From Paramacrobiotus metropolitanus (taxonomy: Eukaryota > Tardigrada > Eutardigrada > Parachela > Macrobiotidae): a DNA stretch of 64,000 nucleotides. The notes under the pieces were generated by a model that did no database searches, had not been told where the DNA came from, and saw only the letters and a list, made by a program, of their open reading frames with translations. The position numbers were made by a program, and so were the translations under genes. Of the stretch, positions 45,953 through 61,693 are shown piece by piece; position 1 is the stretch's first letter; each line of letters opens with the position of its first letter. The stretch lies in contig NW_026570382.1 of the NCBI RefSeq assembly GCF_019649055.1, forward strand, positions 62,001 through 126,000, read 5' to 3'.

Positions 45953-46237
45953 TTATTCCGTCTTCCGGCACACGGATCCACAGAGGTTATTTTTGTAGAC
46001 TTGACAGCACTTTTCGCCCTTGGAACAGCTGGAATCTCCTTTGCACACGTTTTGTCTTTTCCCCTCGACCATGACGAAACTGCCGCCGCACAATACCGGT
46101 CCATGTCCATGTTCCCCGGCTGGTTTATGGGCCCATGGTGCATCCACTTGCGCTGGACACTTCCCGGCAGCGTCCACGGAATAGACGAATAATCCTGCAG
46201 CCACGAGGCAGACAGCAACGATCATTGAGGACTGCAT
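45953..46237 (-). CDS. Small secreted WAP-like protein 3
   Basis: 94 residues from the ATG at 46237 (MQSSMIVAVCLVAAGLFVYSVDAA, a good signal peptide); an upstream in-frame ATG at 46285 is less likely. The mature domain begins GKCPAQVDAPWAHKPAGEHG and carries HGPVLCGGSFVMVEG, then VC-x5-C-x5-CC and LCGSVC. It has eight Cys in WAP order with 7 residues between CC and C7. It is the intact sister of the pseudogene at 44552 and close to the 47927 gene (shared AEHGHGPVLCGG-type block). Target unknown. Confidence 0.82.
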   Translation of the reverse strand: MQSSMIVAVCLVAAGLFVYSVDAAGKCPAQVDAPWAHKPAGEHGHGPVLCGGSFVMVEGKRQNVCKGDSSCSKGEKCCQVYKNNLCGSVCRKTE

Positions 46238-50634: not shown

Positions 50635-50928
50635 TTAAGCAGCTTTCTGGCAGATGGGTCCACAAGTATCATCCTTGTAGTATTTGCAGCATTTCTCGGT
50701 GTGCTTGCAGCTTCTATCGTTCTTGCATATGGGATGGTTGAGTCCTTCGATCGTGCGGAAATCCTTAGCGTCGCAGCCTTCGGATTGCGTTTGTTCTTTG
50801 GGCATGGATTTGGTAGGTCGTGGACAGTGGCCCATTGTGTGGCTGGGCTTATGCGTGGTGGTCCTAGCCTCCACTGTAATGGCCAGGAAAGCCGTCAAGC
50901 AAAGTACCGCTACGCTTAATCGGTGCAT
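50635..50928 (-). CDS. Small secreted WAP-like protein 6
   Basis: 97 residues, single exon. Signal peptide MHRLSVAVLCLTAFLAITVEA, a short Thr/His-rich linker, then GHCPRPTKSM, GCDAKDFRTIEG, IC-x5-C-x5-CC, CGPIC and a short tail QKAA. Compared with the others, the first inter-Cys loop is polar (KEQTQSE) and the GPGPVIC block is missing, so it forms its own branch. All eight framework Cys are kept. Confidence 0.8.
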   Translation of the reverse strand: MHRLSVAVLCLTAFLAITVEARTTTHKPSHTMGHCPRPTKSMPKEQTQSEGCDAKDFRTIEGLNHPICKNDRSCKHTEKCCKYYKDDTCGPICQKAA

Positions 50929-56066: not shown

Positions 56067-56342
56067 TTATCCGTCGCAGCTGTTATCCTGCTTGAGGCAG
56101 ACCTTTTCACAGTCTGCATATAACTTACAGCATTTCTGATTTTTGGAACAAGCCTTATCATCCTTGCATACGGGAGTCTTCACTGAGCCGACCGTTGTAA
56201 TGAAATCCTTGGTACACTTGACGCTGATGCCGGATGGCTTGGATATGGTGCTGGGACAGCCCAGGTTAACGCAACCCAGGGATTGTACCGTCTGAATGAT
56301 GACGGTCAGTATCAGTACAAACTCAATAAAACGGGAGTACAT
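56067..56342 (-). CDS. Small secreted WAP-like protein 7
   Basis: 91 residues from the ATG at 56342 (MYSRFIEFVLILTVIIQTVQS, signal peptide); the frame is open 49 codons further upstream without a signal sequence. The mature domain is GCVNLGCPSTISKPSGISVK, TKDFITTVGSVKTPVC, C-x5-C-x5-CC, KLYADCEKVC, and a tail CLKQDNSC that adds a Cys. Here CC to C7 is 5 residues, the canonical WAP spacing, whereas the paralogues have 7 or 8. It has extra Cys near both ends. Closest to the member at 58668. Confidence 0.82.
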   Translation of the reverse strand: MYSRFIEFVLILTVIIQTVQSLGCVNLGCPSTISKPSGISVKCTKDFITTVGSVKTPVCKDDKACSKNQKCCKLYADCEKVCLKQDNSCDG

Positions 56343-58667: not shown

Positions 58668-58946
58668 TCAGCAGTCCGGTGTCACACAGACCTTTCCGCA
58701 GCTGTTGTCCGTATACAATTTACAGCAAATCTTTCCATCCGAGCACCCCTTGTTGTCCTTGCATACAGGATATTTGGCCGCGCCAACCGATGTCATGATG
58801 TAGTCCTTACTGCAGGTTACGCTGATAGTGGCTGGCTTGGGTTTGGGTGCTGGACAGTCGGGATTACTGCATTTGGAATGTACCGTGGTAATGATAATCG
58901 CCAATGTCAATACCGACACCACAATGCGCATGTACATGCTGGACAT
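58668..58946 (-). CDS. Small secreted WAP-like protein 9
   Basis: 92 residues, single exon; the signal peptide is MYMRIVVSVLTLAIIITTVHS (an alternative start lies three codons upstream at 58946). The mature domain is KCSNPDCPAPKPKPATISV, TCSKDYIMTSVGAAKYPVC, C-x5-C-x5-CC, KLYTDNSCGKVC and VTPDC. Ten Cys are present: eight in WAP-like order, one extra near the N-terminus and one at the C-terminus, which may form a fifth disulfide. Sister of the 56067 gene. Confidence 0.82.
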   Translation of the reverse strand: MSSMYMRIVVSVLTLAIIITTVHSKCSNPDCPAPKPKPATISVTCSKDYIMTSVGAAKYPVCKDNKGCSDGKICCKLYTDNSCGKVCVTPDC

Positions 58947-60407: not shown

Positions 60408-61693
60408 TTATCTCGGAGGTACAGTGTATGTTTGCAAATACTTACGATCGGGACACGTTGTTACGGCTGCATTACACTGATACCGCGCCACCAACGCCAG
60501 ACAATCTAACCGGCTCAGTCGCGGTATGAAAAAGTTCTGATTCGTCGGAGCATCCACCGGGTTGGTGTACACCGGCAACCCGGTACCCGTTGTCGACTGG
60601 AATTTCGCGGGCGCATATAAGGTCACCGAGTAATAGTCAAAGGGACTGGCGATGACATTCGTTAGCGTTGATTGGAAGGGTGAATAAATATTGAATCCCT
60701 GCAGTGAGATATCCACATTGGCCGGTATAACGGTGATAGGTCGGTCTAGGCGCTGGAATTCATTGAGAAGACCTAAGGTGTTGGCCAGGAACTTGACGAC
60801 TTCTCGTGTATTGCCAACACAACCTCCCGGAGCTCCCGATACCAGGATCAGTTTCTGTCCTAGCCGGTTCTGTGCTACGGCGTGGGCGCCGATAGCCATG
60901 CAAATAAACGGTCGAGTCCTGTAATGTGATTATGGAACATGTGCATTATGGAACATCTTATGTTAAACGTTTGGCCATACCGCAATAAAAATAAAAAGTC
61001 GCTGTACATTCCAAACAAAAATATAAAAGGCAGCTAAACTTGTGAAATTTATAAATCGCAAAATCCATATATAAAAACCTAGTATTTTTTGAACTCTTAA
61101 ATTGCAAAAACATCTGTAGGTTCCCTATAATATAAACCCCGGGAGATAAGGCAGAGGAAGCAAACTTGTTTTGAGCATATAATTTGCTGAAAGAGAGAAA
61201 TTAAATTTACTGTTATTTAGGGTGAGTTTTTATGATTACACGGATTTGTGAATTGGTATCGTTATGAATGCTTGCAAAAAATACATGATAACTATTTTTA
61301 TCATTTACCCGTTGTTCAGATTAGCCGTAATCCATAGGAAGTCCCCGGGTGGTGTGCCGGGTGTGGTGAACTCGAAGAAATTGACACATCCATTGAGATC
61401 GGCATTAATTAACGATATTCCCTCTCGTATATTGCGCACTTCCGCCCCGGCTGAAAATAATCAAGCATGATTCAGTTTACCGGAAACACATTTTTAAATT
61501 TACGATTTTCTGTAGAAATGTTGGCAGAATGCGTACTGTAGCGACCGGTTTCGATGTAAACCGGAATGCGGGTAACCGTGTCAGTGGTGCTCAATCTCGG
61601 CCAGTTGTTGAACCGCGGATCGGTGTTTAATACTGCCCCCTGGAGAGAGGACGGCACCGCTAATAGTATGCAAATCAGAAAATGAAATCGCAT
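60408..61693 (-). CDS. Astacin-fold protein lacking zinc-binding residues (probable pseudo-protease)
   Basis: Exons 61537-61693, 61309-61450 and 60408-60918 (phases 1 and 2) give 269 residues. Signal peptide MRFHFLICILLAVPSSLQG. After the join, RIPVYIETGRYTGAEVRNIR reads like the astacin N-lobe (compare VPYVI...AMxEI). The four disulfide Cys of astacins are present (74, 106, 133, 248). The active-site helix is aligned as KFLANTLGLLNEF followed by LDR, in place of HExxHxxGxxHE...DR: all three zinc His are K, N and N, and the catalytic Glu is Phe. The Met-turn region reads FDYYSVTLYAP instead of YDYxSxMHY. The frame is otherwise intact, so the fold is probably kept as a secreted binding protein. 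Exon 3 contains a perfect donor (CGATC|GTAAGT at about 60446), so a longer spliced form is possible. Confidence 0.7.

Follow-up and report, generated by a model that had tools for sequence, protein, structure and literature searches.

Does a gene whose product has the outline of a secreted astacin peptidase, with none of the catalytic residues, encode a working protein, or is it a gene in decay? This question is raised by a gene on the minus strand at 61693-60408 of the window, that is, of the whole stretch of 64,000 nucleotides analysed here, from the tardigrade Paramacrobiotus metropolitanus (contig NW_026570382.1, positions 62,001 to 126,000). An earlier interpretation made from the letters alone (the sequence-only reading) had favoured a pseudo-protease over simple decay.

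The target gene has three exons, with GT..AG borders, introns in phases 1 and 2, and a frame that stays open throughout; its read-through product is 280 amino acids long. Exon 1 (61504..61693; minus strand, as for all features below) carries the start codon, a signal peptide (61693-61637, a hydrophobic stretch judged by eye), the mature N-terminus AVLNTDPRFNNWP and strand I (RIPVYIE), and runs in frame to a GT donor. N-termini resembling that of the target were found at loci L001, L002 (two genes), L005 and L006 of the same genome. Exon 2 (61309..61450) encodes the helix with Cys85 and belongs to the N-terminal subdomain, with an intron at the matching place in paralogue models. Exon 3, up to a donor discussed below (60446..60918), encodes the remainder of the astacin-fold domain, including the degenerate catalytic helix KFLANTLGLLNEFQRLDR (residues 153-170, 60741..60794), which replaces HExxHxxGxxHExxRxDR, and the altered Met-turn SVTLY (residues 208-212, 60615..60629), which replaces SIMHY. 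The astacin cysteines are at residues 85, 117, 144 and 259, and two extra cysteines are at 250 (60501..60503) and 266 (60453..60455). The in-frame GT..AG exons, the hydrophobic start and the four astacin cysteines bear out the claim that frame, signal peptide and family cysteines have been kept.

We found that the target matches astacins weakly. A Pfam-A search returned Astacin as the only family among the matches listed at E up to 1, with an E of 8.4e-4 and a score of 19.5 bits, short of the 22.5 bits that the curated cut-off requires, and the best phmmer match among PDB sequences was likewise an astacin, at a weak E of 0.17. Alignment A1 brings together 11 exons of the family described below; the Astacin profile is matched by 10 of them at E <= 0.1, the best at 9.2e-10, and the five other Pfam families listed for these exons have one matching member each. 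When A1 was compared by hhalign with ten catalytic astacins of the same genome, the two aligned over 110 columns (probability 98.3, E 1.2e-14), and the degenerate helix fell in register with HExxHxxGxxHE. The placement of KFLANTLGLLNE against that motif, as first proposed, is therefore no alignment accident. The target also keeps the family-specific Glu and R-x-D-R (E164, R167, D169 and R170). In astacins, the cysteines pair as C42-C198 and C64-C84 and the family-specific Glu pairs with the mature N-terminus (PMC9848320).

The target protein was searched against its own genome (169.8 Mb, 533 contigs), which yielded 31 matching stretches, three of them the target gene itself and the best-scoring other 39% identical. 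The set was widened by searches with three relatives, and the loci were modelled with a purpose-written spliced aligner, giving 48 family gene models including the target. Of these, 42 have no frameshift, although some are partial, and six are frameshifted; three pairs are more than 80% alike, two of them with one frameshifted copy, and so the independent intact genes number fewer than 48. The members of the L001/L003 and L012/L013 pairs are 99% alike in protein, L001 and L012 being frameshifted, and may be recent duplicates, haplotypes or assembly errors. In the same genome, the Astacin profile finds matches in at least 164 stretches, and catalytic astacins are therefore abundant there. The repeat described from Hypsibius scaffold ends (PMC5531438) gave no exact three-unit match, and the cuticle family PF00379 gave none either, in a search whose control also drew a blank.

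Residues were counted in an alignment that joined the 48 family models to 12 catalytic astacins from this genome. These 12 were drawn from 20 astacin loci. Of the other eight, four were kept apart (L057-L059, and L060 because an exon edge truncates it), and four more, L042, L050, L051 and L056, were read with the careful tree described below, three having full motifs and L056 lacking the Glu. We found that the loss of the three zinc ligands and the catalytic Glu, which the sequence-only reading had reported for the target, is common to the whole family: the first His, the Glu and the third His are each present in 0/48 models and the second His in 3/48, whereas all four are present in 12/12 catalytic rows. 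In the target, the site reads KFLANTLGLLN in place of the HExxHxxGxxH of active peptidases. The Met-turn is altered as well. Its Met is Thr in all 47 family models with the position (Met 0/47), compared with Met in nine and Leu in three of the 12 catalytic rows; the turn of the target, SVTLY, has exchanged Met for Thr and His for Leu and so does not have the active-peptidase form, although it retains the zinc-ligand Tyr, which is otherwise seen only in L020 (2/47). The loss pattern is unchanged among the 42 models without a frameshift.

Other parts of the domain are largely kept in the family. The helix Gly is present in 45/48 models and the family-specific Glu in 47/48. Within R-x-D-R, the first Arg is kept in 42/48 (Lys in the other six), the Asp in 42/48 and the final Arg in all 48. 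Among filled rows, Cys85 is present in 38/43, Cys117 in 45/46, Cys144 in 48/48 and Cys259 in 36/44. Cys250 is specific to the family (44/44 filled family rows versus 0/12 catalytic rows); Cys266 is found in 40/40 filled family rows and is not exclusive to them, since 3/7 filled catalytic rows also have it. An Arg four places ahead of the first His position is likewise characteristic of the family (38/48, versus 2/12 in catalytic rows). Clade-wide loss and added cysteines, together with the missing prosegment described below, go beyond what the first reading had seen.

To place the family among astacins, we built a careful tree with the active-site columns excluded. All 44 family rows fell on one side of a single branch (support 100/100; 100% of 200 bootstrap trees), opposite 28 astacin rows made up of 25 catalytic-type and three other degenerate ones. 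Nine of the catalytic-type rows had been added since a family query matched them, and all nine have the full HExxHxxGxxH; one of the 25, L056, lacks the Glu. A quick tree with 43 family rows gave the same family split. Within the family, the target falls in a set of six in the careful tree (100/96), and the quick tree groups it with two genes of L002 and with L003, L005 and L006. L001, L012, L027, L028p5438 and L060 were left out of both trees, L015 additionally of the quick tree and L079 of the careful one. The trees are unrooted; because astacins are zinc enzymes, we take it that the site was once present in the family and has since been lost. One scan of prokaryotic contigs and one of viral contigs with exon 3 found no relatives there.

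Two further kinds of altered astacin were seen outside the family. L056 (G000 C326:16824-17246) has all three His, with the catalytic Glu replaced by Leu (HLVLHALGMFH). L057, L058 and L059 (G000 C36:443767, C36:1087178 and C52:533442) have no HExxH and a turn that keeps an IxH core. These three were placed among the catalytic rows and possibly represent a separate loss; as grouping with the family was not rejected (p-AU 0.248), we did not adopt a second independent loss.

We also asked what fold the family is predicted to adopt. The superposition suggested by the sequence-only reading succeeded with a paralogue and failed with the target itself: an AlphaFold model of target exon 3, built from 11 rows, had a pLDDT of 38.6 and was unusable. 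The modelled paralogue was L004, nearly all of whose domain is encoded by a single exon, and its alignment (A4) comprised 33 family-only rows; a 68-row alignment, A3, contained short N-terminal exon rows out of register and was not used. The L004 model reached a pLDDT of 65.1 and a pTM of 0.67, compared with pLDDT values of 43.6-53.9 for the other four models. All 21 Foldseek matches to PDB at E <= 0.001 were astacins. In VIA-align, the model superposed on BMP1 (3edh) with Z 11.8 and an rmsd of 3.3 over 165 residues, and scored Z 11.2 with crayfish astacin (1ast), 8.2 with myroilysin and near 5-6 with MMPs. By way of this paralogue, we infer that the target also has an astacin fold.

Active astacin peptidases have a prosegment with FXGDI; none was recognised in the target. 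With a pattern combining mature start and strand I, the N-terminus was located in 17 of the 48 family genes (one further match was junk). In 11 of the 17, among them the target, the conserved mature start comes immediately after a Met-plus-hydrophobic stretch; the N-terminus of L007 is ambiguous, L015, L018 and L025 carry roughly 9-17 extra residues, and no signal peptide was seen in the N-terminal exon of L026 or L037. In contrast, a further stretch that does not resemble a signal peptide precedes strand I in 4/4 catalytic genes. FxGD occurs in none of the family N-terminal exons inspected, that of the target among them. The catalytic exons likewise showed no strict FXGDI at the expected position, although some of them have GDI-like pieces, and the contrast between the two groups therefore rests mainly on the extra stretch. 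Where the N-terminus is readable, the prosegment thus appears to be absent or very short in the family.

The sequence-only reading had ended the protein at a stop in exon 3, at 60408, and had pointed to a GTAAGT near 60446 as a possible donor. In the target, seven bases follow Cys266 and then comes GTAAGT in phase 1 (60440..60445). Of the 48 family rows, 35 could be compared here, namely those of intact models with a Cys in the Cys266 column: GT occupies exactly this position in 30 of the 35 and GTAAG in 21. The amino acid that a read-through would encode here varies among family rows (Arg, Gly, Cys or Ser). A GT this regular, where the residue varies, points to splicing and away from two codons conserved for their own sake. 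With a donor at 60445 shared by the family, the C-terminus set by the stop codon is in doubt, and the gene would be expected to continue in other exons. From the family alignment, exon 3 probably codes only as far as 60446, and the tail and stop of the first model (60408..60445) would be intron. The three-exon model thus stands as far as the in-frame joining of its exons, but its stop at 60408 and the 11 residues ahead of it are doubtful. The GTAAGT itself is conserved across the family and so probably used; the exon joined to it was not found: when the 3.4 kb downstream of the target was compared by tblastx with the regions that follow other family loci, no exon emerged as convincingly homologous.

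Eight downstream pieces of other family loci were compared with Pfam; two match above cut-off, one has a weak unrelated match and five have none. The two are a hemopexin repeat at L011 (E 2.5e-7), about 0.75-1 kb past its donor, and a CAP domain at L005 (E 1.6e-8), about 0.6-0.75 kb past its donor; each is putatively on the same transcript as the dead domain. Thr-rich stretches lie downstream of other family loci, e.g., L014, L022 and L026. Just 3' of the target in the window, four related small cysteine-rich sequences lie in tandem on the same, minus strand (58668-58946, 56085-56273, 50647-50826 and 45965-46102). The member at 58668-58946 has a signal-peptide-like start and a sub-threshold match to WAP (13.8 versus 20.8 bits).

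Together, these results make it probable that the target is a member of a large clade of secreted astacin-fold pseudoproteases whose zinc site was taken apart before the clade spread. The three His and the catalytic Glu would have gone ahead of the expansion; the Met of the Met-turn would have become Thr, a basic residue would usually have come to occupy the first His position, and Cys250 would have been gained. The parts that hold the fold (the astacin cysteines, the Gly, the family-specific Glu and R-x-D-R) would have been largely retained. Such a protein would need neither zinc nor an activation step; it should therefore leave the cell already folded and work through binding. Its partner would be another extracellular molecule, held perhaps in the old substrate cleft. 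Non-catalytic extracellular binding is the likeliest function by inference, and the lack of activity, the order of events, the binding mode and the ligand are to be read in the same way.

What occupies the dead site bears on how this binding might work. At the first His position, 22 models have Lys and 19 have Arg (41/48), which suggests a rebuilding of the site and not just its loss; at the third His position, 25 have Asn and 13 Ser (38/48). It is possible, and we propose it tentatively, that the dead site is a new, selected binding pocket, established before the clade spread, with Lys or Arg in place of zinc, Asn or Ser, and the Thr of the turn, carried by at least 48 loci with different tails, and, jointly with this, that the clade, with its hemopexin-like and CAP tails, is a set of secreted recognition proteins.

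Alternatively, the dead domain could act as a decoy or regulator that binds substrates, inhibitors or partners of catalytic astacins and so tunes their activity. Partners would be plentiful, given the abundance of Astacin-profile stretches in the genome, and the overall fold is retained in the paralogue model. However, the floor of the cleft has been rebuilt, with Thr for Met, Lys or Arg for the first His and the added Cys250, so a substrate-like cleft need not persist, and we regard this alternative as unlikely. A decoy, an inhibitor and a matrix-binding protein, the roles put forward in the sequence-only reading, are candidates alike under these data. It is very unlikely that the old scaffold has acquired a different catalytic function or a new way of binding metal: Lys/Arg and Asn/Ser do recur at the first and third His positions, and the target has its Tyr, but a wide range of residues stands at the positions of the Glu and the second His, and the Tyr is confined to two models, unlike what a new catalytic set would show.

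Selection on the coding sequence addresses decay. The dN/dS set comprised 17 pairs of intact models with more than 50% identity over more than 100 codons. Eight pairs were saturated, and the nine with finite dS gave dN/dS of 0.11-0.33, although only L010/L019 (ratio 0.30) has a dS below 1, the other eight exceeding 1. For the target against L003, pN was 0.405 and pS 0.795; because its synonymous sites have reached saturation in comparisons with the closest family members, the target has no ratio of its own. Where four relatives (L002p4300, L003, L005 and L006) agree, the target differs from them at 14/71, 15/76 and 11/17 of codon positions 1, 2 and 3, counts that span the path from target to relatives rather than the target alone. 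In simulations, a neutrally evolving target remained without a stop with a probability of about 0.09 at 0.1 changes per site and 0.0125 at 0.2. That the target is on its way to becoming a pseudogene, as its longish end branch (0.88 versus a median of 0.52-0.55) and the six frameshifted family models might suggest, is highly improbable in view of its intact frame, clean splice sites, codon-position bias and the low simulated chance of staying open. The earlier preference for a pseudo-protease over decay is thus upheld by substitutions shared across 48 loci, by dN/dS below 1 among paralogues and by the codon-position bias.

If the pseudoprotease reading is true, the astacin fold can be co-opted wholesale for non-catalytic use, and the family offers many natural variants for mapping the demands of the fold in the absence of selection for catalysis. 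Counts of astacins made by profile alone would also mix enzymes with non-enzymes.

How do these proteins compare with known systems? With astacin peptidases (MEROPS M12A, PF01400; crayfish astacin, BMP1/tolloid and the meprins), they share the fold of the paralogue model, a secretion signal, the astacin cysteines, the family-specific Glu and R-x-D-R; unlike them, they lack the zinc ligands, the catalytic Glu, the Met of the Met-turn and a recognisable prosegment, and have Cys250 in addition. Some M12A entries are filed by MEROPS as non-peptidase homologues. Among the papers listed by searches of an open-access library, no clade of astacin pseudoproteases was recognised by title or by the start of the abstract; dead metzincins have so far been known mainly among ADAMs. 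Dead ADAMs (M12B: ADAM2, 11, 22 and 23, UNC-71 and others) are reviewed in PMC11266112, where, in the portion available, the M12 rows of the table are all ADAMs, UNC-71 included, and astacin is mentioned once. As in the tardigrade family, metzincin domains without zinc ligands and Glu have been retained in working proteins; unlike it, as far as that portion describes them, dead ADAMs carry disintegrin and membrane parts and typically keep the Met-turn (PMC11266112). The venom vesicles of the wasp Meteorus pulchricornis contain 36 metalloproteases, six with the canonical zinc motif and 17 more or less degenerate (PMC8310156, in the part at hand). In that part of the paper, which does not mention astacins, the wasp proteins differ from the tardigrade family in being of ADAM/MMP type, in a loss that is not clade-wide and in the furin site that separates the pro-domain from the catalytic domain in most of them; what the two have in common is a large expansion of secreted metalloprotease-like proteins (PMC8310156).
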